This document shows, one piece after another, positions 1,738 to 26,747 of a stretch of DNA of 37,838 nucleotides (positions are counted from its first letter, which is position 1; each line of letters starts with the position of its first letter). The position numbers and the translations under genes were made by a program. The stretch comes from a virus: IMG/VR virus record IMGVR_UViG_3300037174_000086, positions 1-37,838 of that record. One strand, 5' to 3'. Under the pieces are notes generated by a model that was given only the letters and a program-made list of their open reading frames with translations, was not told the DNA's origin and made no database searches.

Positions 1738-2063
1738 TTCCTGCGCTCATCAAGCTCCAGCGAACACACACATCGGCAGTCGCCACCATCGCAGCATAAA
1801 TGATCGCCAGTTCGACAAGCATCACACAGTATATTGCCATCCACTCCCGGCGGCCTACCTCGACCCCGTTTTTCAAGAGAGGGAGCAGGAAGCGGCGCCG
1901 TAGACGGCAGCCTAACAAGTATCGGTCTATCACTATGCGCACGACTATTATGTTCGGCCCGGCCAGCATTGGTATCAATGACCGGGCATCCACACTTCGG
2001 GCAAGACGCGACCCCGCGACCATCGAATTCATCTATCCCGCGCCATTTACGAACCTCGCTCAT
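1722..2063 (-). CDS. Zinc-finger protein with AT-hook-like and Cys-rich parts (113 aa)
   Basis: Three parts are visible. Residues 21-43 carry C21-x2-C24-x13-H38-x4-H43, a C2H2-type finger. Residues 66-72 read RGRGRPP, the core of an AT-hook (minor-groove binder). Residues 80-100 hold a dense cysteine cluster (C80, C83, C90, C91, C96, C98, C100). This combination suggests a DNA-binding regulator or architectural protein. The gene overlaps the integrase stop as ATGA, so the two are likely made together. It is flanked by an identical 17-bp direct repeat (1721-1737 and 2059-2075). No precise family assignment is possible by eye. Confidence 0.75.
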   Translation of the reverse strand: MSEVRKWRGIDEFDGRGVASCPKCGCPVIDTNAGRAEHNSRAHSDRPILVRLPSTAPLPAPSLEKRGRGRPPGVDGNILCDACRTGDHLCCDGGDCRCVCSLELDERRKRKTG

Positions 2064-2075
2064 CCAGTTTTCCTC
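2059..2075. repeat. 17-bp junction repeat, copy 2
   Basis: Second copy, at the integrase/zinc-finger gene junction, 338 bp from the first. Confidence 0.85.
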
Positions 2076-3205
2076 GCGAGCATTTCTATGATTCGCGCAT
2101 TTGCCGGGCGGGTAGTCTCCAGGTTGCTGTTCCCGCCATACGTGTCCATTGTCGTCGCCAGTCTACTGTGACGCATCAGATTCTTCTGAATCTCCAGCGG
2201 AGTCCCGCCCTGTCTCAGCATAGCGCGGTAAAAGTGCCTCAGCGAGTGCCAGCCAAACCCGTCAACACCAATGCGCTCCCCGGCTGGCTGTAGGTATTGC
2301 GCGCGGAGCCAGTCCCGATCGTAAGGCCTGGAGGTCCGCTCCGAGCAAAACACCCAACGCGAACGAAACTTCTCCCCAGCCTTCCACGCCTTCAACACGT
2401 CGATCAATACTTCATGCAGGGGCAACGTCTGCCGGGAACTATCCGTCTTGGTGTCGCTGGCCATGCCGTGAACCACGCTGCGCTGAATTTGGATGGTCTT
2501 GGCCTCAAAGTCGCAGTCGTCCCACCGCAGCCCGAGTATCTCCGACACGCGCAAGCCGAGGCCAGCGGCGAGATGCACCATGGTCTTGACCAATTCCGGC
2601 AGTTGCGGATCGTCCAAGAGTTGCTGGTACTGATCTACGGTCAGAATGACGAGATCTTTGGCGCGCTTCGAGGCGCCCTTCAACCGAATCAGGTCGAGCG
2701 GGTTGCGGTCCATCTGTAAATGGTTCCACAACATTGCCTTTTCAATCAATAAGTGAAGTAGGTTGCGAACCTGGCCGCGGTACAAGGGGCTGGCCAGAGC
2801 AGGTACGCCCTTGCCTGGGTGCCGGCCAATCGCAGGTAGTTCCTTGAGCCACACTTCGACCGCCAAAATGTCGCGGCAGAACTGGTCTATGCGTAGATTA
2901 CCCCAACGGAATTCGATGCGCTTGAACACGGAACGGTAGGACGCGGCAGTTGTCTCGCGCCCAGGTGGGCAGTCCCGCCAGAATTTAGCGATCAGGTCGG
3001 CGATGGTAATAACCTCCGCGTCGCTGTTGGCGAACTTCCGGAAGCGCTCGGCGGCCTTCTCGGCCTGGGCGCGGGTCGGGAATTGCTTGACGGTGCCGAT
3101 GAACTCGGAGCGTTGGATGCCATCTTGTCTCCAACGGAATCTCCAGCATTCCCCGGACTTGCGCTGGATTTTTACGATTGAGCCCTGCTGAAAACTGGTT
3201 CTCAT
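2060..3205 (-). CDS. int: Tyrosine-family integrase
   Basis: A 381-residue site-specific recombinase that should integrate and excise the phage genome through a covalent 3'-phosphotyrosine intermediate. The catalytic set is visible: R219 (GLRVSEILGLRW), K253, H320 and R323 (HSLRHFYR), H346 (RHS), and the nucleophile Y356 in TMDTYGG. The N-terminal part has a basic arm-binding-like region and a SAM-like core-binding domain. The start at 3205 is chosen because AAGGAAAG precedes it at good spacing. Upstream in-frame ATGs lie on the promoter. It is the first gene of a leftward operon whose next genes overlap by ATGA. Its promoter contains the phage-wide TGCAAGCGT elements. Confidence 0.96.
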   Translation of the reverse strand: MRTSFQQGSIVKIQRKSGECWRFRWRQDGIQRSEFIGTVKQFPTRAQAEKAAERFRKFANSDAEVITIADLIAKFWRDCPPGRETTAASYRSVFKRIEFRWGNLRIDQFCRDILAVEVWLKELPAIGRHPGKGVPALASPLYRGQVRNLLHLLIEKAMLWNHLQMDRNPLDLIRLKGASKRAKDLVILTVDQYQQLLDDPQLPELVKTMVHLAAGLGLRVSEILGLRWDDCDFEAKTIQIQRSVVHGMASDTKTDSSRQTLPLHEVLIDVLKAWKAGEKFRSRWVFCSERTSRPYDRDWLRAQYLQPAGERIGVDGFGWHSLRHFYRAMLRQGGTPLEIQKNLMRHSRLATTMDTYGGNSNLETTRPANARIIEMLARKTG

Positions 3206-3227
3206 GGTCTTTCCTTTCTTTACCATC

Positions 3228-3269
3228 ACGCTTGCATAAAGCATAGCACCACGCTTGCAAGCGTGCAAG
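3228..3269. promoter_or_regulatory. Operator cluster ACGCTTGCA / perfect 14-bp palindrome
   Basis: 3251-3264 is the perfect palindrome ACGCTTGCAAGCGT, and 3228-3236 is another half site ACGCTTGCA. The palindrome falls within the -35/-10 spacer of the integrase promoter and touches the edge of its -35. The second half site lies near the expected transcription start. That placement is typical for repression. The same element recurs at the other control regions of the window. Confidence 0.75.
3240..3268 (-). promoter_or_regulatory. Integrase promoter (sigma70-like)
   Basis: On the minus strand, TTGCAC (3268-3263), a 17-bp spacer and TATGCT (3245-3240), followed by the integrase SD and ATG about 35 bp downstream. 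The spacer holds most of the palindromic operator. Confidence 0.7.
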
Positions 3270-3282
3270 GGGGAAATTCAAA

Positions 3283-3353
3283 GCGGCAGGTATCTATGGG
3301 GGCACAGCATACCTGCCGCCGATTTCCGGCTGCCAGCCCGATGGCGCCGGAAA
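3283..3353 (-). terminator. Two tandem stem-loops after the RHH gene
   Basis: Two perfect inverted repeats follow the RHH gene stop on the minus strand. First is TTTCCGGC/GCCGGAAA (3346-3353 with 3323-3330, 15-nt loop). Then comes an 11-bp stem, GCGGCAGGTAT/ATACCTGCCGC (3309-3319 with 3283-3293, 15-nt loop), followed by TTTGAATTT. They likely stop transcription of the replication operon before the integrase promoter. The T-run is weak, so a recombination-site role next to int is also possible. Confidence 0.5.
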
Positions 3354-3354
3354 C

Positions 3355-3696
3355 TTAATCCTTTCTCAAAGTGATGAAGGATTTGAAATTCTCACGCACG
3401 CAGATGCGCACGAAATCCGGCTGGTCGCGGTCCGCTTTCTTCATGGCCGCGTCTAACTGCGCCGCCTGTTCCGGGTTCAGGTGTAGGACGACGTTACGCG
3501 CGCCTTCCTCGCGGTCACGCTTCAGGCCTTTCCGGAGAACAGGTGTGCTGGTTGGTGCGGCTTGGGTTTCGGCTGGTGCTGGTGGAGCTGCTGCGGGCGG
3601 ATTGTCGGCGTTCATCTTCTTCAGCCTTGCCCGGGCATCCGCCAATTGCTCTTCGGAAAGCGCGTCGGTATCAAATTCAGTGCTGCGATTTGCCAT
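3355..3696 (-). CDS. Ribbon-helix-helix-like regulator (113 aa)
   Basis: Residues about 68-108 (RNVVLHLNPEQAAQLDAAMKK, then DFVRICVRENFKSF) match the strand-helix-helix layout of CopG/Arc-type DNA-binding proteins. The N-terminal half is a helical segment plus an Ala/Pro-rich linker. The start at 3696 is taken because AGAGGAA precedes it; the frame also runs upstream into poor sequence. RHH proteins bind as dimers to short repeated half sites, so this is a good candidate to read the TGCAAGCGT elements, one cluster of which lies just downstream of its stop. That link is inference. Confidence 0.7.
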   Translation of the reverse strand: MANRSTEFDTDALSEEQLADARARLKKMNADNPPAAAPPAPAETQAAPTSTPVLRKGLKRDREEGARNVVLHLNPEQAAQLDAAMKKADRDQPDFVRICVRENFKSFITLRKD

Positions 3697-12099: not shown

Positions 12100-15000
12100 T
12101 TACAACACACCTGTTTTCTTCCGGCGCGGTTGATGGGAAGGTGCTACTTTGTGAGGCTTCAGACCAGGGACTAGAGCGGCTCCAACAATCTCCTCGTTTA
12201 GCAGGCGCTTGACCAAGTTATCTCGCCGTTCCTTCGGCCCCTGCTTGTGCTTTCCGGTGTCGGAGAACGAGTTGGACATATCCTCGAAGAATGTGAGCAG
12301 CGCTTCCACATCCTGCCCAGGAATTCCCATCGGCATCCCTACAATACCTTTCGTAAACCGGTGCTGCGTGGCGAGCTTTTCCCGATCCTTCGGGTTCTTA
12401 GTCGCCCACTCGTTGAACAAATCGGATAGCGGCTGGATGCCAATTGCCATCGACATATTCGCCATCGACCACCAGAGAGCATTCGCCGACTCTGGGTGCG
12501 CCATCAGCCATTCGTGACGGTTCCTTTCAATCTCCGCTTCCGATGAATGCTGTAGTTTGTGCCGTTGGTAGAGAAGTTGCTCCAGCGCAAATCCGGCGAG
12601 CCCTGCATTGAAAGCGAACCGTCCGATGAGATGATATGGCTCCACGCTCTTCCAGTTGGACTTGTAGAGTTCATCGAACACGGTGCGGTTGACGAGATTC
12701 GCCGTTTTGAACATGAACCCATGGAGCATCTGCGTCATGCGGAAGAGTGTGGCCAGGTGAATATCCGCCATATCCGCGTTCTTTTTGGGGCGGAACGCTG
12801 GGGGCATCTCTGATGGACGATTGCTGCCCGTCACCCAGTTGGCCGCGCCCAACTCCATGCGCCTCACGTCGTCCGGCCCATAGCCATTCTTGATGATGTT
12901 GTCGAGGTGCTCGTCCGACATTCCGTAGAGGTCGCTAAGTTTCCGGCGTAGAATTGGATTCTTTGGATCTTTGATCAGTTCTGGGTATGCGTACCGCTCG
13001 AAATAGCGCCGCCCCATGGCGGAAGCCAATATGCGCGATACTTGAATCTCCAGCGTGAACCCGGTGAAGTCAAGGAATTTCTGCCCAATATTGCCGCGTG
13101 TCATACCATACTCGCGCATCCACGCACTCTTGCTGTAGTCGAGGAGAGCGTTGCAATCCCTGGCCCGTTCAAACATCTCACCGGCATGGGTGACTCCGGT
13201 AAAGATTCCGCCTACCACACTGCGCGTGTTGGTCGCCAGCGAGGCTTTCCATAAATGAGTCATCACCTTGATTGGCGAGTAGAGCATCTTGCCGACGATG
13301 ATGACGGCGCTCGATGCGGATAATGCTTGACGGTCGCCAGCAGGCAAGTGAACTGGGTCAAGGTCTGACGTAATGATGCGATCGACGAGCGCAGCATCTT
13401 CTGATGGGAGTTTGCTGATGAGCGGGTCGGTTTTCTGACGGAACTGCCCATGTACTTCGGTGATAGCCAGCGTCGTCGCTACCTGGTCGATGTACCTCTC
13501 AATAGCTTGTCGGTCGCGCCCATAAGTGGGGATGCTCCACTCTCTCGCCCGCTCCACGTTTCCAGCCAGACGGATGCCGCGGTCAGCGTGCTCGAAGAAT
13601 GCCTGAGCCGCTAGTTTGGAGATGCCGCGATCTTCCGCGAATTGATTGATGATATTCTCCCGACGCACGTCGCCTGTCGGCATATTCATAATGTCAGCCA
13701 GCGTTGTGATGGTCTTCTGGCCGGTTACTTTGTCGGTGACCACAAATTTCTTGTTCCAGTCGTACATGCGCGGCCAGTAGTTCGGGTCCTTTTCAATCGT
13801 AGAGTATGGAACCTCTTTACGCTTACCGTCCTCGTAGATCACCACTGCGCTGCCGGCATCGGCTAATGCTTGCCGAATATCAGCGGTGAATGTTCTCCAC
13901 TCCTTAACCGCTTTGTTGATGCGCGGATCATCTGACGATGCCTGTCCCTCGACCACCTTCGACATGAGTTCAATATCTTTTGGTTTGAGATTGTTTCCGT
14001 GGATAAGGTCGCGGATAATCGCCTGCATACGTCCCTGGTACAACCCCTTCCGAAGATCTACATCGACCACGCGCCGTCCCATCTCCCGGCCCAGTTTCTC
14101 CATGCCTGCGCGTATGTAGGCTTTCTCCACTACTTTGTCGCCGGATGTGAGCAGTATCCAACCATTCTCCCGAATAAATTTTCCTATATTGCGAACACTA
14201 TCCTTGCCTCTTTCGAGAGCGATCAGTTTTTCGTCGGACAAAAGCAGGTCGTTTACCGCATCCCTCGTCTTGCGCTGGACCGCATCCTTGACAGGTTCGC
14301 CTGAGCCCATGGCGGCATGAGCGGTGTCTTCCGCTTCCAGCCGGATAACGCCCTCGTTGGCGGTGATCGCGCGTGCGGTTGGCGCCGGAAGATTGTCAGT
14401 GCGCCCAAGTAATTCCTGCCACGCTTCGCGGGCTGCGCGCTGCCATGGATCTTCATCCACTGGGCCTTGGTAGAGCTTGCGCCCGGCTCCCTTGTACTTC
14501 ATGCCCTTATTTACAGCTTTCTTCGCATCCGGTATTTTGAGGTCTTTCAGATGTTGATAGTTAACCCCTTCGCCGTCCTTCTCCCACTCGGCATTTTGCG
14601 GCTTATATTCCTCACCCTGCTCGTAACTTAAAACTTCTCCAGGGATGCCAACTGAATCACGCAAATCCTTCGCCAGTTTGGATTCCATTGTCTCGCCGTA
14701 TACGGCAGCTTTTAGGGAGCGCATCCTGGGCAATACTTTGGTCGCCAGTAGTTTCATCTCCGGCAGGGCATCCGTGGTGATGAAGATATTTGCGACTCCG
14801 GATTTGGTTCCGAAACGCCAGGTACGCCGTGTTCCTTGCTCAAGCATGATCCCAGCCCACGGAGGCTCCAGAAAGATGCCCATGCGCGGCTTGTCGCCCA
14901 CTTTGTCTTGAGCGTTGGTTCCCAAAGCGCCAGCCGCGTAACTCATATACATGGCGTCTTTCTCTCCAGCTTGAAATGCCTCTAGTTCCTCGGTGCGAAT

Positions 15001-18000
15001 CTGGTTAGCTGGACCGGCAAATATAGCGATCTTGTCGCCGAATGCTTTGCGCATCACCTCTACAATGTTTGGCAGAGGTGGAAGTAGTTTGTTGATTTCC
15101 GCGCCCAAGTCTCCCGGCAGGTTATGGAAGAAGGCCATACCTTCTTCGGCTGGCGAACGGTACTCGGTGAAGATAATCGGCTTCCAACCTGCATCAATTG
15201 CATTCTTGGCAAATTCGATAGTCGCAGGGAGTTTAGATGCCGCGATGTACCGCTTGAGGTAGATGGCCTCATGGCCAAGCGTCGGCGTAAGATACCGGCT
15301 TAGGCCTGCTTTCTGAAACGCCTTAGCTGCCCTGGCGAACGCTGCGCGGATGTTGCGAACTCCGGCGCGTACTTCTTCGGTCTGCGGCACCATGGCGACG
15401 TGCGCCTCAGTTCCCTCCATATCCATGTGCAGTGTCTGCCACTGGCCGCGCTCGATAAGCTGCTGCCTTAATTTTTCAAGTTTCTTCGCCGCCGCGCCGC
15501 CGCTGTATGTATTGGGAGCAATCTCCACCAATCCAAATTGGCTTGCCCATTCTGGAAACCCCCCCCTCGGCCACAGGCCCAGCCTGTCCATGTAGCCCAT
15601 TTCCATCACGGTTGTATATGGAGTACCGCTGGAATACACGACTTTTTTGGCGGCTTGCCCCAATATACGGACAGCTCGGCCCTGATCAGATTGAGTCCAG
15701 TTGCGCGCTGCGGCAGATTCATCGAAGATCACAAAGTCCCAGGGGATAGAGAACGCTGCCTTATTGCCGCGGATTTGCGCGTAAGTGCCAGCGTAGACCC
15801 CGCCGGTCTGAATCTCCTTCATGTCGGCAGGCAGCGCATCAACCGTCAACCCAACGCGACGCCCCCAATCAACGTATCCATCCGCATCGTGGATAAGGTT
15901 CTGGCTTACGGTGATGATCAAGCCTACCTTGTCTCCGCCCACTCCGAGCAAATGGTCGGCAATGGCGACGTTCATATAAGTTTTTCCCCCGCCCATAGGA
16001 ACAGCCAGGACTGTCGCATCGTGCTGCTGCAGGGCAGACAGGGCTCCTTCGATTCCTTCTGGTTGGCCGGGATAGATGCCGAGGTCGCGCATATCCGGAG
16101 AGATGCGCAGGGTCGGCGGCGGTGTTCCTTTCGGCAGGCCCAGCGCGTCTACGTGCTCGCGCCATGTATCAGGGTCAACAACCGGCGTCCCGCGCTCCCT
16201 TTCCGGCGCTTTAAGTGAGGCTGCCTTTACTTCTCTGAGAGGGTTCTTTTTGGGTGTGGCGATTCGTCCGGAATCTCCCTTACCGCCGGCGGCTCCATGT
16301 TCCCCGTCGGCCTCTCCGGACTGTTCAGGAACTCGATCAACTGGTTCCGCTTCTCGAACCCCAGTAGGCTCATCAGATACTTCTCCCGGTCCATGTTTAC
16401 CACCTCCAAGTGCGATTGCCGTCGGGTCGCCGCGGGTCTGCTGCACGGTCACAGCCTGGGCCGGCGTCGTCGGCTCATTCATCGTCGGATGCTCGCTGAC
16501 CCCATGGACGAGCTGAATAACGCTGGTATCTTTTGGCTCCGGAGTTCCACCGATAATCCCGGTCGCCCCGCGAAGTTTGTCCTCAATTCCGTTCAACTGG
16601 CCGCGTAGCAGCGCCTGGCGCCGGGGATCTGTTTCCCTCTTCAGTTGAGCTTCCAGTTCTTTTGCTTGACGGGCAAGGTTGATAGTTTCATTCAGGCCGG
16701 GTTGGAAGAGTCTCTTGCTTTTTTTAGCATCAGCGCGGACGTAAGTCGTATCCTCGCCCTTGACTTGATAGACCTCCCACGCCTTGACGCCGTTATCTTT
16801 ATTGAGAACGAACTGCGCCGCGGCCGCCCGGTCCACAAATATATAATTCTGCGCCTTATCCGATGGCCGCCTGTTGCTCCGGTCAATCCACTTGGCCTCT
16901 GATGGAATCTCCACTTCCCCAGATGCCGCCTTTTCCAGCGCGTCTACGTCGATTCTGGCAGTAACCGGCTTGCGCTCAGTGCGAGTCCAGTCGTACCAGC
17001 TATCGAACATTTCGTTGAGTTCTTTGGAGCCCTTTGCCAGCTTACTCCCAATTGCAGCATTGTAGATCGACTGCATGGCCCGGTGGATGGTCGCAAAGAC
17101 TTGCTCCAACTTTCCGCGGCGAATACCACCGTCGTAGTGGTAGCGCTCGAAGGCTTGCGCGAACTTCTCTTCCTGTGCCTCAGTCCACTCTTCTCCCGGC
17201 TTCGCGCCGACAAACTCATTGGCGATCTTTTGATGCTCAGGTTTCAGGAAGCGACGGATGGCGTGCGGCAGTTCGTGGATGACAGTTGACACATCCGCTG
17301 AATCACACAACCGAACAATCGTCTGGAGTTCATTGAACATTTCAGTGTAGCCGCGAGCTTTGCCATCTTCTCCGCCCATGACAAAAGTCAGCCGCCGGTT
17401 GCCCAACAAGTTCTCAAACGATTCTCCGATGGCTTCGGGGAGAATCTGCTCTATCATTTGACTGGCGGCGGCGGCCTGCTCCGGCGTGATACCTGGATGA
17501 TTCTCTAGCGACTCACGGAACTCTTTGACTGTGCGCGGGCCTTCCGGCAGCGCCTCGACTACGCTCGACGAATCCGGCTGCACGTCGGCAACCACCGTCT
17601 CTGCGTGGACTGAGGGTTCAACCGGCAACGGACCGCGACCATCCTCGATAGCCGCCTTGACGACCTCCGGAAGCCCGGTGACCATTCCCCACTCTTCGGG
17701 AATGACCTTCAATCCATACCTGCTGGCGATGGTGTTGGTGAAAGCATCTGCCGGATGCTCTGCGCCGAACATGGAGGACTGTTTACCTGTGGCGTTGTCG
17801 GCGAATTTGGCGATCATCGTCGAGTATTCGCGCGGTGATTCTTCGAGAGCCATGGCCATAGCTTCAACCGCAGGATGAGGTGGAGCTACGAGCGATTGGC
17901 CATCAAACTCAAATGCTCCAGCGGGTCCGAATCCTTTCCTGTCTGTGTACTTTTCTGGACGCAGGTAGCGGTCGATGAGTGATTCGGCGTTTTCGCCTTC

Positions 18001-21000
18001 CTTCGGCGCTTCGCGCGGGACAAGGTGAGAGAGTCTGGCTGACGCATCCTGCACTCGGGAGAGCAGCCGGACGGCATCGGTATTTATCGATGCAAGGTTC
18101 CAACTCTCGCCCGCGTTGCGCATCTGGATAAAGAACAGGCCGGCGCGGGTCAATTTGTCTTTGGTTGACGCCGATGCGCGGTTGAGAACATTGGAATCTG
18201 TGACCGTCATCGAAGCCAACATATTTTCGAATAGGTCTTTGGCTTTCTCTTTGAGGGCACCATCTTTGTCCACGTACTCTTCAATCTTTGTGGGGCTGAT
18301 AATCCCGGCATCCTGCAGGAGTTGCGCAATATCCGCGCTTCTCTCCCGCATCGCTTCCCTGACGGTCAGCGCTGTATGATTCTTGTCGAAAACGTCGAGG
18401 GATTGAACGATGTTATCCAGTCTCTCGATAAACTCCGGAGCCAGCAGGCGCTTCATCGCCTCGCCCTGCTCTTCATCCGACATACCGCCTTCGGGACCGC
18501 GATTCAGTTCTGTGCCCAGGCGCGACCATTCAATATCTGAACTGATTGGTTTGTCGAGCATCTTGACCAGAACTGGAGCTTTCATCTTCAAGACTTCAGC
18601 GGGGTCGATTCCAAAGGTTACGGCGCGTCTGTGAAGTTCGGCGACGTACCGCGCGAATCCATCCGCGTTATTGCGCAGCGCCGTCAACAGGCCCAATGCC
18701 CGGCGATTACCAGAGATTACGTCCGTCTTCTGGTCAACGACCGGCGGGCCTGTCGTAGCCGATACGCCATTGTCCAATAGTTGATCGGGGTCGGGAGCCG
18801 CAGCAACCTGCTCAACGCGCACCTGGGCGTTCTTGCTGGTCTTGTAGTTTCGGGGCTGACCTTTCTGGTTGTAACCTTCGCGCTCCTCATAAGTGAACGG
18901 CACATGGGAAGTCCGCAAATCGGACGCTTCCATCAAAACATAGTGCGCTGGCAAATCTTCGCTGTTCCCGTGGGCAACAACTTTCCCGTGGGCAACAACT
19001 TTGGTTTCGCGGCCCATCACCAGGGGAACATCTGGTCTCGCAATAGGCGCCGGTGCTGGGCTGTGAACCGATTCGGCTCCAGCTGCTACCGCGTCCGCCT
19101 TCCGCGAGTCGAAGTTTGCTGCCTGCTGCGCCGCATCAGCCGCCGCATCCTGGCCCTGCGCTCTCAGATCGTCGGCTGCCTGCTGCAAATCCTGGGACTG
19201 GCCAGAGAGTTCGACTATCTGTTTGGCGGCATCATCCACCGACCCATCGGCGTCGTCCCTGAACTTTGCGGCCGTGGCCTCGGCGAGCTCGTTGAGGATG
19301 TGATCTTCGGCCGCGGCCCGCACCTGCCGCATCCGGGTCAAAAACTCGTTGAGCGCGGCGGTGCGCGCCCGGGCAGGCAGATTGAGGGCATCGCGTTCGA
19401 TCTTGAAAAGGTCTTCCGGCGAGTTGACTTCGCCAAGGCCAAATTTTGAGGCCTGCTCCGTCAATCCCCGGCTGACCCGGTTCACTTCGTCCAGGGACGG
19501 CGAGCGCCCGGTATCTGACGCTGTGATCGCTGCCCCAAGCTCCCTGTGATGGCTGTCACGCTCCTCTGTGACCATCTGAGCGGCAATCCTTGAGTCCATG
19601 TCCCGGCGAATGGCGTCCCGCTGGTCCATGCGTAGACTGGCGCGCTGCTGGGCGCGCTGCTCGGCGTCCATGTTGGCGAGGTCAATATGTTGGCCGGTGC
19701 GCATCCTTTCGGTAAGGTCCACGGAAAGAAAGGCTTGAACCTTGCCCGGCTTGTTGCGCAGGTACTCAGCCAATGCCGGGATGCGCTGCTCTTCGGTCAA
19801 TGAATCGAACGACTTACCGAAGAATTTCTCGGTGTGCCCGTTTAGGTCGTGGGCAGTCTCCGGGTCGGCTTTGAGCACAGAATCGATGTTGCTGCGGCCG
19901 ATGATGAGTTTGGCGGTGCCCGCGTAGATGTCGGCGGATGGATCTAGAGGTTCCTGGTCCCCGGTCTCGGTGCGGTCCAGATACCGCTTGAGCATAGAGT
20001 CAGCCAGGTCCGCATGCTTCACGTCGAGTTCAAACTGTTCGAAGGCGGGCGTTCCCTTGAAGGCCTCCCATTGCTCGGAATGGTTCTTTTCCAGCCACTC
20101 TGCGGCTACCCTCTGGCGGTAAACCGGGAGACTGGAGAACGATTGGCCGAATTGCTGCTCGGTATGCTCTTGAATGGCGGTCTCGGCGGCCGTAACCTGG
20201 GCAGTACGCTCTGGGGTGGGCTCGCCGCCGCCGGCGCGGCGCTCGACGACAGGGATAGCTGGTTCTGGGGGCTCAGGGTCATACCGCTGGCCCGATTCGC
20301 GCTCCGTGGTCCAGCGCAGGCCGGTGACAGGCAGGTTCTCGGAGGTGCGGCCCTCGACTACCTCGAATCCGCGCTGCTCGGCGTCAGATGGGATAATGTC
20401 ACGGCGCGCGGCCTGTTCCCGGTGGAGGGCGTCTTGCTTGTAAACCTCTTCGCGCTGATGCTTGATGAGTATCTGTTTTGTCAGATTCTTGGCGGCTTCC
20501 GCCCGGTCTTCAAACTCTTTACGCTTAACTTCCGCCGTATCTGCTACTTCAGAAGGTGTTGGAACTCCGGACTTCTTGGCGACCTTGGCCAATCGCTGCA
20601 TCTCTCGGTCAACCCTGGCCTTAACATTTTTCCCTGCCGCATCCGTCGCAATGTTATAAACGACCGCCGCTTTCTGCTTATCACTAAGATCGTTGTAATC
20701 AGACCCGTAGACGCTCTGGGCGTGTTCGTTAAACTTCCCATGAGTTCCATAATCTCTTACCGCGCCATGAATGTCTCGACCTGCGCTGTACCCCAGCATA
20801 AGGGTCATTGCAGTGGAAACCGCCATATTACCTTCGATTTCACTGGCAGCTCCCTCATCTCCCGCATCTTTGGCTTTTTGGCGATCTTTCCAGTCGCTGA
20901 CCAGACTTTTCACCATCGATGCGCCGAACCCGGCGGTCACAAGCCGCGGCAAAACCATCTTCGCCAAACCGCCGCCGAGCCCAAGTAGGTCGCCAATGGG

Positions 21001-21540
21001 GATTGCCTGGAGGAGAAGCATATCCGGGGAGGTCAACCCGCTAACGCCTTTGGCGAATCCAGTTGCACGCCTCTCCCATTTTCCAGCGGCATCTGCTGGA
21101 TTTTTACGGTCCTTTCCCTCTGTCGCATTTTCGAAGGAGAACAATTCTCCTTGATGACGGTAGTAGTCCTCGCTTCCGTGAACGTCAACCGGCTCAACGC
21201 CGAGAGCGCGGGAAACCCCTGGAGCCATGTTGTAGAGGGTTTGAAATGGGGTGCTGCTCGTCAATGTGCGGCGCGTGCGCTCCCACCACGACGGAGACCA
21301 CGCCTTCAACTCTACGTCGGAGTGAGGTTTGATTTTGTCGGCATCCTCTGGAGTGGTGCTGGCAATTTCCGCAGGTGGTGCAGGTTGCTCGACGGGGATG
21401 TTGAAACTCTTACTTTCAACGGGTATCTTAAAGGTCTTGCCGCGGTGCTCGTGCGTGTCAGACGCAGGGTTTTCTACCGGGATATTGAATGTCCGGGTCG
21501 TAGGCGTTTCGGGAGTTGCTGTGGCGGTTCCATCGGCCAT
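12100..21540 (-). CDS. Giant polyvalent virion protein (ParB/DdrB-like, HExxH, SF2 helicase)
   Basis: A 3146-residue multidomain protein, probably packaged and ejected with the DNA. In order: an N-terminal tail with three F-x-IPVE repeats (residues 17-51). Next is a region with hydrophobic helices (about 165-250). A DdrB/ParB-like domain runs from about 866 (HYVLMEASDL) with SGNRRA at 943-948. A zincin-type HELPH at 1422-1426 is followed by EEKFAQAFERYH. An SF2/SNF2-like helicase spans about 1815-2310, with PMGGGKT (1848-1854), DES (1940-1942), SSGTP and EQGTRRTWRFG (2234 on). Long helical regions follow, and a hydrophobic C-terminal part (about 2740-3100) resembles polyvalent-protein-associated domains. 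Known polyvalent proteins protect entering DNA or rewire the host. Substrates here are unknown. Confidence 0.88.
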   Translation of the reverse strand: MADGTATATPETPTTRTFNIPVENPASDTHEHRGKTFKIPVESKSFNIPVEQPAPPAEIASTTPEDADKIKPHSDVELKAWSPSWWERTRRTLTSSTPFQTLYNMAPGVSRALGVEPVDVHGSEDYYRHQGELFSFENATEGKDRKNPADAAGKWERRATGFAKGVSGLTSPDMLLLQAIPIGDLLGLGGGLAKMVLPRLVTAGFGASMVKSLVSDWKDRQKAKDAGDEGAASEIEGNMAVSTAMTLMLGYSAGRDIHGAVRDYGTHGKFNEHAQSVYGSDYNDLSDKQKAAVVYNIATDAAGKNVKARVDREMQRLAKVAKKSGVPTPSEVADTAEVKRKEFEDRAEAAKNLTKQILIKHQREEVYKQDALHREQAARRDIIPSDAEQRGFEVVEGRTSENLPVTGLRWTTERESGQRYDPEPPEPAIPVVERRAGGGEPTPERTAQVTAAETAIQEHTEQQFGQSFSSLPVYRQRVAAEWLEKNHSEQWEAFKGTPAFEQFELDVKHADLADSMLKRYLDRTETGDQEPLDPSADIYAGTAKLIIGRSNIDSVLKADPETAHDLNGHTEKFFGKSFDSLTEEQRIPALAEYLRNKPGKVQAFLSVDLTERMRTGQHIDLANMDAEQRAQQRASLRMDQRDAIRRDMDSRIAAQMVTEERDSHHRELGAAITASDTGRSPSLDEVNRVSRGLTEQASKFGLGEVNSPEDLFKIERDALNLPARARTAALNEFLTRMRQVRAAAEDHILNELAEATAAKFRDDADGSVDDAAKQIVELSGQSQDLQQAADDLRAQGQDAAADAAQQAANFDSRKADAVAAGAESVHSPAPAPIARPDVPLVMGRETKVVAHGKVVAHGNSEDLPAHYVLMEASDLRTSHVPFTYEEREGYNQKGQPRNYKTSKNAQVRVEQVAAAPDPDQLLDNGVSATTGPPVVDQKTDVISGNRRALGLLTALRNNADGFARYVAELHRRAVTFGIDPAEVLKMKAPVLVKMLDKPISSDIEWSRLGTELNRGPEGGMSDEEQGEAMKRLLAPEFIERLDNIVQSLDVFDKNHTALTVREAMRERSADIAQLLQDAGIISPTKIEEYVDKDGALKEKAKDLFENMLASMTVTDSNVLNRASASTKDKLTRAGLFFIQMRNAGESWNLASINTDAVRLLSRVQDASARLSHLVPREAPKEGENAESLIDRYLRPEKYTDRKGFGPAGAFEFDGQSLVAPPHPAVEAMAMALEESPREYSTMIAKFADNATGKQSSMFGAEHPADAFTNTIASRYGLKVIPEEWGMVTGLPEVVKAAIEDGRGPLPVEPSVHAETVVADVQPDSSSVVEALPEGPRTVKEFRESLENHPGITPEQAAAASQMIEQILPEAIGESFENLLGNRRLTFVMGGEDGKARGYTEMFNELQTIVRLCDSADVSTVIHELPHAIRRFLKPEHQKIANEFVGAKPGEEWTEAQEEKFAQAFERYHYDGGIRRGKLEQVFATIHRAMQSIYNAAIGSKLAKGSKELNEMFDSWYDWTRTERKPVTARIDVDALEKAASGEVEIPSEAKWIDRSNRRPSDKAQNYIFVDRAAAAQFVLNKDNGVKAWEVYQVKGEDTTYVRADAKKSKRLFQPGLNETINLARQAKELEAQLKRETDPRRQALLRGQLNGIEDKLRGATGIIGGTPEPKDTSVIQLVHGVSEHPTMNEPTTPAQAVTVQQTRGDPTAIALGGGKHGPGEVSDEPTGVREAEPVDRVPEQSGEADGEHGAAGGKGDSGRIATPKKNPLREVKAASLKAPERERGTPVVDPDTWREHVDALGLPKGTPPPTLRISPDMRDLGIYPGQPEGIEGALSALQQHDATVLAVPMGGGKTYMNVAIADHLLGVGGDKVGLIITVSQNLIHDADGYVDWGRRVGLTVDALPADMKEIQTGGVYAGTYAQIRGNKAAFSIPWDFVIFDESAAARNWTQSDQGRAVRILGQAAKKVVYSSGTPYTTVMEMGYMDRLGLWPRGGFPEWASQFGLVEIAPNTYSGGAAAKKLEKLRQQLIERGQWQTLHMDMEGTEAHVAMVPQTEEVRAGVRNIRAAFARAAKAFQKAGLSRYLTPTLGHEAIYLKRYIAASKLPATIEFAKNAIDAGWKPIIFTEYRSPAEEGMAFFHNLPGDLGAEINKLLPPLPNIVEVMRKAFGDKIAIFAGPANQIRTEELEAFQAGEKDAMYMSYAAGALGTNAQDKVGDKPRMGIFLEPPWAGIMLEQGTRRTWRFGTKSGVANIFITTDALPEMKLLATKVLPRMRSLKAAVYGETMESKLAKDLRDSVGIPGEVLSYEQGEEYKPQNAEWEKDGEGVNYQHLKDLKIPDAKKAVNKGMKYKGAGRKLYQGPVDEDPWQRAAREAWQELLGRTDNLPAPTARAITANEGVIRLEAEDTAHAAMGSGEPVKDAVQRKTRDAVNDLLLSDEKLIALERGKDSVRNIGKFIRENGWILLTSGDKVVEKAYIRAGMEKLGREMGRRVVDVDLRKGLYQGRMQAIIRDLIHGNNLKPKDIELMSKVVEGQASSDDPRINKAVKEWRTFTADIRQALADAGSAVVIYEDGKRKEVPYSTIEKDPNYWPRMYDWNKKFVVTDKVTGQKTITTLADIMNMPTGDVRRENIINQFAEDRGISKLAAQAFFEHADRGIRLAGNVERAREWSIPTYGRDRQAIERYIDQVATTLAITEVHGQFRQKTDPLISKLPSEDAALVDRIITSDLDPVHLPAGDRQALSASSAVIIVGKMLYSPIKVMTHLWKASLATNTRSVVGGIFTGVTHAGEMFERARDCNALLDYSKSAWMREYGMTRGNIGQKFLDFTGFTLEIQVSRILASAMGRRYFERYAYPELIKDPKNPILRRKLSDLYGMSDEHLDNIIKNGYGPDDVRRMELGAANWVTGSNRPSEMPPAFRPKKNADMADIHLATLFRMTQMLHGFMFKTANLVNRTVFDELYKSNWKSVEPYHLIGRFAFNAGLAGFALEQLLYQRHKLQHSSEAEIERNRHEWLMAHPESANALWWSMANMSMAIGIQPLSDLFNEWATKNPKDREKLATQHRFTKGIVGMPMGIPGQDVEALLTFFEDMSNSFSDTGKHKQGPKERRDNLVKRLLNEEIVGAALVPGLKPHKVAPSHQPRRKKTGVL
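18965..19000. repeat. Perfect 18-bp tandem duplication in the giant gene
   Basis: Two exact copies of TTCCCGTGGGCAACAACT, encoding VVAHGK-VVAHGN just before the ParB-like domain. In-frame, probably replication slippage. Confidence 0.9.
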
Positions 21541-24494: not shown

Positions 24495-25448
24495 TTACAG
24501 CCAAGACAAAGATGGCGGTTCCGGCGCTTTGGCGGGTTCCGGCTCTGGCGGCGCCACTTCCACGGGAATCACCCGCGCGGCCGGCGCAGGGGGCGGCAAG
24601 CGCTTCTCGATCACTGGTTTAGGCTCTGGTTCCTTCACTTTACAGTGGCAGTCCGGGTATGTCCGCTTAAACGCCTCAATCTGCACGGCTACGGCCTCTG
24701 CGGTCCGCTCCACAGACTTCTCTTGCAGGAGGGTGTCGTCCGAGTCTATGGCTTGAACGATGAAGGTGCCGCTTTCCGGCGCCGGGCTCTCGTCTTCCGC
24801 CGGCTCCTCGCGGAACTTCTCGACCAGAAACTTCGCCGCATACTGCTCAAAATCCTCGCGCAGCAGGGACGAAACCAGCATCGGCACGAGTTTCTTCCCT
24901 TTCAACTGGAAGCGCGGGATCTCGCCGCACTCTTTGAAGCCGAATATGGCCATGAACTTTGCGGTGAGCGCATTCTCTTTGTGCCGGTTGCCGATGATTG
25001 CCTGGAGATCGAATTCCTTGAATAAATAGGCCAGTCCGAGCATGGTCACAATCTGCTGATCTTCTGTACCCCACGCATGCCGAAACATACAATACCCCGC
25101 GATAAGCGCCTTCTCTGTATTATTTGTTCCGAGGGATACGGTTGGAAAGGCAAATCCGAGTGCCTTAAAACCGCGCTCTTCCCACCGGCCAAGGATTAAA
25201 AGAAATGGGCGCTGCGACAAATAGGAAACGATAGACCCGAAATCAGAAGAGGGGGTGCCTCCAAATGTTGCGTCAATCGCGCCGTTCCCCGACCTTCTCC
25301 GAGAGTCACGAGCCCAATAATATAAGTGAGAAAGATAATCTTCACTAAACAAGTCTGTCCGGTTGCGATCATACCGTATAGCCTGCAAATCTCCCCATCG
25401 GTACTCGTCTTCGCGCAGCGCTTCGAGAACATCCACTTTTTCGCTCAT
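24495..25448 (-). CDS. GNAT-like internal/structural-module protein (317 aa)
   Basis: Residues about 75-185 (PFLLILGRWEERGFKALGFA, NNTEKALIAGYCMFRHAW, LFKEFDLQAIIGNRHKENAL, FMAIFGFKECGEIPRF) read like a GCN5-related acetyltransferase fold: strand, long helix, then a GF-beta end. The position next to internal core genes recalls T7 gp13-type proteins. The C-terminal quarter is Pro/Glu-rich. Upstream of the ATG at 25448 there is no room for a coupled start as elsewhere, because an antisense HNH gene intervenes. A diverged second copy of its first 27 codons remains beyond the HNH gene at 26067-26150. Catalysis is unproven. Confidence 0.7.
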   Translation of the reverse strand: MSEKVDVLEALREDEYRWGDLQAIRYDRNRTDLFSEDYLSHLYYWARDSRRRSGNGAIDATFGGTPSSDFGSIVSYLSQRPFLLILGRWEERGFKALGFAFPTVSLGTNNTEKALIAGYCMFRHAWGTEDQQIVTMLGLAYLFKEFDLQAIIGNRHKENALTAKFMAIFGFKECGEIPRFQLKGKKLVPMLVSSLLREDFEQYAAKFLVEKFREEPAEDESPAPESGTFIVQAIDSDDTLLQEKSVERTAEAVAVQIEAFKRTYPDCHCKVKEPEPKPVIEKRLPPPAPAARVIPVEVAPPEPEPAKAPEPPSLSWL

Positions 25449-25549
25449 GCTTGCAATATACTCCTCGCGCTTTTCATCATCAAGTGGTAAAATAGAGGGG
25501 TCGGGAGTTGATAGCTCCTGGCAAGCCTAGCCGCCCCAAGGAGACGACC

Positions 25550-26287
25550 ATGACCCCTCAAGAATCCAGTTTAGCACTTTGTCGATGCGGTAATCCAACC
25601 TGCACTATTCCCTACGGTTTCTGTCATTGCGGGTGCGGAAAAATAACCTCTTTAGCCTGCCAGTCGTTCACGCGATTAGGATGGGTTCGAGGAGAGCCAA
25701 CACTGTTTCTTAATGGACACAATCGCGTCAAGCCTCGACCTGTAATCGTCCAACCTGACGATCCCTCTATCCGCCTGATTGCGCTCACACAAAACCAAGT
25801 ATCAATTGTCGATTTTTCGGAATATGAACGACTTATGGATCGACTCTGGATAGCCCAAGACGACAAACATACTGGAGATTTTTATGCCATCCATAATATC
25901 CGAAATGGAAACCGGTGTATTCATGTCCGAATGCATCATGAGATTTTACCTCTGCGTGATGGCTTAGTGACAGATCATATCAACGGGTACACTCTCGACA
26001 ACAGGAGAGTAAACCTTCGCCTAGTTACACATTCCCAAAGTATGATGAACCGGGGGATTTTTCCATCTAACCATAGCGGACGCACTGGAGGTCGCCCCAC
26101 TTATAGGCGTCTTCCTGGAGGGCTGCTAGTACGTCGATTTCTTCGGTCACTTTCGCCTCGCAACTTCACCATAGGTTTTCCCCGAGGTCTGTCTGCAAAT
26201 CGCCTGATAGGCGTCCATATCACCATTGGCAAGCGCTGCGCTCGCGGCATTCATGCGCTCTTCAACAATCTCGACCACACTCATTGA
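25550..26287 (+). CDS. HNH homing endonuclease, antisense to the structural operon
   Basis: The HNH core is clear: HVRMHHEILPLRDGLVTDHI, then NGYTLDNRRVNLRLVTHSQS and MMNRG, matching the DH-x-N-x-x-LDNR-x-x-NLR signature of phage HNH endonucleases. N-terminal CxC/CxCxC clusters may bind zinc. The start at 25550 has AAGGAG upstream. It is one of very few + strand genes and lies inside the leftward structural module, as expected of a freestanding selfish endonuclease. The last about 70 residues run antisense through the GNAT 5' remnant and the end of the next gene, so the native C-terminus may have been near residue 175. Confidence 0.88.
   Translation: MTPQESSLALCRCGNPTCTIPYGFCHCGCGKITSLACQSFTRLGWVRGEPTLFLNGHNRVKPRPVIVQPDDPSIRLIALTQNQVSIVDFSEYERLMDRLWIAQDDKHTGDFYAIHNIRNGNRCIHVRMHHEILPLRDGLVTDHINGYTLDNRRVNLRLVTHSQSMMNRGIFPSNHSGRTGGRPTYRRLPGGLLVRRFLRSLSPRNFTIGFPRGLSANRLIGVHITIGKRCARGIHALFNNLDHTH
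26067..26150 (-). pseudogene. 5' remnant of a GNAT-like gene cut by the HNH element
   Basis: GTG at 26150 overlaps the upstream stop (GTGA) and encodes 27 residues, VTEEIDVLAALQEDAYKWGD then LQCVRYG, before a stop. This aligns without gaps to the first 27 residues of the GNAT-like protein (MSEKVDVLEALREDEYRWGD, LQAIRYD), 17 of 27 identical. It is the original, translationally coupled start of that gene, now separated from the rest by the endonuclease. Confidence 0.8.
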
Positions 26288-26443
26288 GTGCGGAGTTTTG
26301 ACGCCGAATTCGGCAATGTAGGCATCGGCGTCCTGATGCGCCTTATAGAGCAACTTGTATTGCGGATACCGGCTGGCATAGACGCTGAAGCAGCCGACGA
26401 TCTTCTCCAAGCGCTCAAGCCTCTCTAGCAAGTTATCGTCCAT
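26147..26443 (-). CDS. Helical hypothetical protein (98 aa)
   Basis: Starts MDDNLLERLERLEKIVGCF, a leucine-rich helix likely to form a coiled coil. The rest is helical with no cysteine pairs or membrane segment. It overlaps the upstream gene by 11 bp, and its stop overlaps the GTG of the GNAT remnant. No family is recognised. The HNH frame runs antisense through its last 47 codons. Confidence 0.65.
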   Translation of the reverse strand: MDDNLLERLERLEKIVGCFSVYASRYPQYKLLYKAHQDADAYIAEFGVKTPHSMSVVEIVEERMNAASAALANGDMDAYQAICRQTSGKTYGEVARRK

Positions 26444-26747
26444 ACACCACCATCGCCTTCGGACCCTCTTTCACAAGAGCGGTCACGAGACAGGAACCAT
26501 CCCACCACGCATACTTAGCCTTCGGGTCGAACATCATCACCGCTCCTCGCGGGTCAGGGTGCGCAATATTGAAGAAGAAGTTCATGGCGATACCGTCGTA
26601 GAGAGTTTGGCTACCGGAACTAATCCGATGCCGCAGTTGCCCGTCTCTCTGGTAGAATTCTTCTCTGATTTCAACCATTCCGTCTCTCATAGTTACTCCT
26701 TCACCCTCGCGGTAGTAGTAGTCGCGGACCAGAACTGTGTCGCTCAT
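26433..26747 (-). CDS. Hypothetical protein (104 aa)
   Basis: A beta-rich small protein with many Tyr/Phe/Met residues (VRDYYYREGEGVTMRDGMVE, MNFFFNIAHPDPRGAVMMFD). The ATG overlaps the previous stop as ATGA. No family is recognised. It sits among accessory genes between the nozzle and internal core genes. Confidence 0.65.
   Translation of the reverse strand: MSDTVLVRDYYYREGEGVTMRDGMVEIREEFYQRDGQLRHRISSGSQTLYDGIAMNFFFNIAHPDPRGAVMMFDPKAKYAWWDGSCLVTALVKEGPKAMVVYGR

Follow-up and report, generated by a model that had tools for sequence, protein, structure and literature searches.

We found an HNH endonuclease gene lying antisense between the stump of a GNAT-like gene and a complete copy of that gene, and this locus probably arose by homing-type allele replacement with a failure at one of its two junctions. 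It was analysed within a viral contig of metagenomic origin (IMGVR_UViG_3300037174_000086), whose whole 37,838-nt stretch we call the window. The most novel component of the locus is the cloverleaf leader RNA of the nuclease gene, whereas scars of this kind come from a process already known.

Results

On the minus strand, the order is a 104-aa gene (26433..26747), a 98-aa gene (26147..26443), a 27-codon stump (26067..26150), the antisense HNH gene and the complete GNAT-like gene of 317 aa (24495..25448). The stump is composed of a GTG and 26 further codons. Both the sequence and the open reading frame lists confirmed that its GTG overlaps the TGA of the 98-aa gene as GTGA (26150-26147), as the earlier note had described. 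It is translated as VTEEIDVLAALQEDAYKWGDLQCVRYG and ends with TAG, and the GNAT-like protein starts with MSEKVDVLEALREDEYRWGDLQAIRYDRN. The count of 17 identical residues out of 27 between both starts was also reproduced (start codon counted), and using the GNAT-like protein as a query against the window retrieved the stump with an E-value of 3.8e-7 and 59% identity. This homology is real rather than due to chance, since the corresponding sites of related phages without the HNH gene show the uninterrupted gene.

The evidence for the label "GNAT" on the product of 24495-25448 is weak: PHROG 4470 (acyl-CoA N-acyltransferase) was matched weakly by eight of eight family members, with a best E-value of 0.0025. 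The protein had no match in Pfam or the PDB, and its AlphaFold model (mean pLDDT of 54) was too poor for a structure search. No member of the family was found in bacterial or archaeal genomes, and cultured phages presented no match to it or to the 1406-aa protein. Similarly, no relatives of the 98-aa gene were found in viral contigs. Elsewhere in the window, virion-type genes lie next to that of a 3146-aa protein (12100-21540), part of which is helicase-like (PHROG 62, E=1.3e-12), and a tyrosine integrase is encoded at 2060-3268.

The HNH frame (25550-26287, plus strand) stays open across the whole stump and part of the 98-aa gene. Only its residues 1 to ~180 (25550..26091) are HNH-like by alignment; the rest (26092..26287) is read-through of sequence antisense to these two features and has no homology to HNH relatives. 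The HNH_3 catalytic domain is present at residues 137-165 (PF13392, E=2e-7, above the cut-off), and the HNH motif is kept. The C-terminal AP2 domain is absent, with the read-through in its place. Among the HNH relatives, AP2 was detected in L015 (E=1.3e-7) and, just under the curated cut-off, in L005 and L007. Thus truncated, the nuclease of the window is probably inactive. Its best match in a cultured phage was L084 8079-8600 (32% identity), from a phage that infects the soil bacterium Tunturiibacter, which may be a hint of an acidobacterial host for the window phage.

The relatives form an uncultured phage group that we identified with the GNAT-like and neighbouring proteins; the window proteins were mapped on them and the gene joints were read. 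The HNH gene was present at the site in two phages (the window and L001) and absent in seven. All seven empty-site phages presented an uninterrupted gene whose start overlaps the upstream stop. The upstream partner is a 104-aa-type gene in L019/L017, L021, L022, and L035 (ATGGxGGATxA), a 158-aa-type gene in L029 and L036 (GTGA), and another small gene in L015/L020 (GTGA), so the GTGA joint was found in three of the empty sites. The nearest relative of the stump was L015, with 91% identity over 68 bp (26085-26152) and 92% of the residues. Together with the same GTGA joint in the empty site of L015, this supported the proposal that the stump is the start of a once uninterrupted gene. Tandem paralogs occurring without any HNH gene, which the earlier note had named as a possible refutation, were ruled out: the gene is single-copy in seven of seven empty loci, and no relative has two copies.

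In L001, a full-length antisense HNH gene lies directly before an intact GNAT-like gene, and both the 98-aa gene and the stump are lacking. The HNH gene abuts a 104-aa-type gene instead, and its right junction is unlike that of the window. The idea that other filled sites would have the same boundaries was therefore not borne out, with two filled sites to compare.

L015 carries a second-site HNH gene with the same leader (2122-2906), between a 67-aa-type and the 93-aa genes. The same flank (AAATTTCCTGTTGC) is found in L001 at 3300-3370 without an HNH gene.

A stretch of 35 bp at the 3' end of the 104-aa-type gene (window 26440-26474) is kept with zero to seven mismatches even though the downstream genes differ. 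Copies were located in L001 (5144), L015 (5124), L017 (5184), L021 (6970), L035 (15188), and L016 (5181), the last of which had no GNAT-like gene that we could find. It is a possible shared recombination linker.

At the level of gene ancestry, the working copy is a mosaic. Its first ~35 codons are nearest to L001 (73% of nucleotides, and 26 of 30 nucleotides at codons 21-30), and past codon ~40 the identity to L001 drops to 50-62%. The body of the L001 gene is L015-like (87-100% in several blocks), whereas that of the window gene (codon ~40 on) is nearest to L035/L029; the relatives are only ~60-75% identical, which makes the parentage of each segment approximate. Maximum chi-square breaks fell at codons 30-35 in L001 and 34-38 in the window (permutation p<=0.001). 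The earlier note had asked for separate trees of the 5' part and the body. These did conflict, in agreement with a mosaic gene, and the window body did not group with the lineage of the stump. In both HNH-bearing alleles, the only two in the data, a 5' segment of ~35 codons (codons 1 to ~36 in the window) and the intergenic region accompany the HNH gene while the bodies differ. The flanking sequence thus appears to travel with the nuclease gene.

The intergenic region (25449..25494) is divergent and, as judged by eye, promoter-like. The empty sites lack it and have the gene coupled to the stop codon before it; both filled alleles have such a region immediately before the GNAT-like start. In the window it reads TTGATG, 17 bp, TATATT, and then gcaagcATG on the minus strand; in L001 it reads TTGCAA-16-TATACT-tgcaagcGTG. 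A -10-like box for the HNH gene (TAAAAT, plus strand) was also seen by eye within 25449-25494.

The motif TTGCAAGC(G), or a close form of it, recurs in intergenic promoter-like places of the window (3254, 10640, 12093, 25450, and 28137) and is perhaps an operator of this phage. We considered an element carrying a TTGCAAGC promoter module and dropped it, given that the motif also precedes the 93-aa gene in L001, at a site without HNH.

The HNH gene starts within a leader RNA (25495..25559, plus strand) that can adopt the cloverleaf shape common to its family, as defined with a covariance model and pair counts. In this fold, P1 closes over the start codon region and is followed by P2 and P3, and the P4 hairpin holds the Shine-Dalgarno sequence. 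P4 is imperfect in the window copy, whose own minimum-energy fold keeps P1 and not all the inner helices. The covariance model, R1, was built from six loci and searched in 32 sources. It retrieved nine further sites at E<1e-4, including the window (E=5e-9), which is a non-seed match, and L001 (3e-8), plus two weak ones. Changes on both sides were observed in 15 of 20 pairs, with 52 such cells compared with 13 after shuffling and 3-8 for slid partners, counts that lean towards the model because the alignment was fitted to it.

In whole-record searches, a nuclease-like reading frame began in the leader at all 20 matching loci examined. These nucleases belonged to at least three families: HNH_3/AP2, HNH_2, and endonuclease VII. 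Since the leader precedes HNH_2 nuclease and endonuclease VII genes (L096, G007 61520-61583; L099, G007 41027-41088), it is not tied to one nuclease family.

The leader had no match in the four empty-site phages searched, around the HNH relatives of four cultured phages, or in the whole Tunturi_2 record. Searching the window region and seven leader-bearing loci against Rfam gave no match, apart from one at chance level (0.16) elsewhere in L041. A search of bacterial and archaeal genomes for the exact leader pattern, in one sequence variant only, retrieved none. Among the papers that we searched, none described this leader, which is weak evidence of novelty.

Discussion

The proposed origin begins with the HNH-AP2 protein of an L001-like donor, which would have cut an HNH-less gene near codons 20-30, in the GDLQxxRY region. 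We place the cut there because the HNH-bearing alleles are most alike in that region and the stump ends in it. Repair would then have used homology on the side of the gene body to bring in the HNH gene, the promoter region, a cleavage-resistant 5' end, and probably the body as well. At the opposite end, an illegitimate joint at a short similarity would have cut the nuclease gene short, so that 27 codons of the old gene persist as the stump after the 98-aa gene. The outcome would be a working gene with its own promoter-like region and a probably inactive nuclease.

The failed junction lies somewhere in 26073..26091, as delimited by the similarity on both sides: the HNH similarity extends to ~26091 and that of the stump to ~26073-26085, so that the two overlap. 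This places it within ~18 bp at codons ~20-26, and not after codon 27 as first thought. The overlap includes CTGGAGG, which also occurs on the strand opposite the GDLQ codons of L015. Microhomology at the junction is likely, although the direct parental match for the 18-bp junction was only partial. We read the junction as an illegitimate joint at short similarity.

Most of the working gene would have come in as a new allele, rather than being what was left of the broken gene, because the stump and several flanking proteins of the window are L015-like and the body is not. This speaks against the first interpretation of the functional gene as the old gene with a new first part: its body resembles that of L035/L029, whereas the stump, along with much of the backbone, resembles L015. 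The earlier note had given replacement of an intact allele with co-conversion of flanking DNA as its alternative. That alternative fits better than regeneration of the target's 5' end, because the lineages of body and stump differ, the boundaries differ, AP2 was lost, and crossovers occur without HNH.

The role of the nuclease in the event is inferred: plain homologous recombination with one illegitimate joint could suffice, because crossovers in the first codons were seen without HNH. L035 (15219 on) and L021 (7001 on) are identical immediately upstream and through approximately the eighth codon, and then ~56-88% identical; L036 and L021 have the gene in common from codon ~5 and not the upstream sequence. 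GNAT-like 5' ends also recombine in relatives that lack the nuclease gene. Ordinary recombination of co-infecting phages, with the HNH gene as a passenger, an accidental illegitimate joint, and no involvement of the nuclease, is thus a serious though clearly less probable account. It agrees with the 5' end of the gene being a repeated recombination boundary in these HNH-free relatives and with the conserved 35-bp 3' end of the 104-aa gene, which offers another shared joint. However, it does not predict that both HNH-bearing alleles have the same short 5' segment with matching breaks, or that their identity peaks at codons 21-30, beside the stump break, as a nuclease target would.

We consider it improbable that the mobile unit is made up of the leader, the HNH gene, the promoter, and its own codons 1 to ~35, and that it inserts, supplies a new start, and displaces the old one. 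The 5' segment common to two alleles with different bodies, and the duplication of codons 1-27 by the stump and the working copy together, are what such a unit would leave. Yet there is no common right boundary (L001 lacks the stump, and its HNH gene abuts the 104-aa-type gene), the body of the window gene belongs to another lineage than the stump, the nuclease is incomplete, and related HNH genes with the same leader lie elsewhere without such a gene piece, such as that at L015 2122-2906. Of the suggested insertion that regenerates the 5' end of its target, the distinctive ~35-codon 5' end of both HNH-bearing alleles stands, and a dedicated strategy is unsupported. Finally, an assembly chimera of two co-occurring phages inside the HNH gene is very improbable: although the window is a metagenome virus contig, its junction falls within a stretch of similarity, and a search for an independent contig with the same junction found none, the flanks to either side keep the gene order of the relatives, and an assembly artefact would hardly be expected from so short a shared stretch.

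If read as a homing-type replacement, the locus would be a natural snapshot of such an event with a failed second junction, in which the donor-type allele, the empty sites, the stump, and the truncated nuclease can all be compared. Comparison of the alleles predicts a target site at codons ~20-30 of the GNAT-like gene. Moreover, a nuclease could in this manner give a virion-region gene a different 5' end together with a different regulatory context: the gene is operon-coupled when the site is empty and has its own promoter-like region when it is filled.

Regarding the leader, its conservation suggests one translational control device common to unrelated phage nucleases, and in that case leader-guided discovery of homing nucleases would be possible. 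The broader proposal is evenly balanced in our judgement: that one cloverleaf leader, not described before, moves with nucleases of at least three families as a shared mobile control module, with the window nuclease as a decayed carrier.

Several of these features have counterparts in known systems. Free-standing HNH-AP2 homing endonucleases (PF13392 and PF00847; HNN-AP2 of Xp10/Xop411 and IPA-HNH of ICP1) have the same HNH_3 core, lie near virion-type genes, are present or absent among relatives, and decay by AP2 loss. In Xanthomonas phages, HNN-AP2 genes lost AP2 after transfer (PMC2248197), and nuclease genes are found at phage exchange boundaries near essential genes (PMC10448857). Unlike them, the window copy is fused to the antisense of a neighbouring gene, and its relatives have the cloverleaf leader.

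For the replacement itself, the closest parallel is T4 intronless homing with one-sided double-strand-break repair. There, free-standing nucleases are transferred with co-conversion of their flanks, and one-sided homing gives illegitimate junctions at microhomology (PMC2988022). The window likewise presents flank co-conversion and, to one side, a junction that is irregular and lies at short similarity, whereas its event would be natural, with no laboratory cross, and is read from sequence. The pairs of mobE in nrdA of Aeh1 and mobA in T4 gene 60 (PMC2988022) also place a free-standing HNH nuclease beside a broken gene; in contrast to those split genes, the window has a complete working copy, so no split protein is needed.

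The leader resembles the T4-type leader hairpins (I-TevI, segB, and mobE of Aeh1; PMC2988022) in having the ribosome site hidden in RNA structure and a promoter near the stem. As in those leaders, a covarying structure encloses the ribosome site and the start codon, and translational repression is predicted. The T4-type hairpins are simpler and have the same apparent purpose, whereas the leader described here is a four-helix cloverleaf with strong covariation that precedes several nuclease families.
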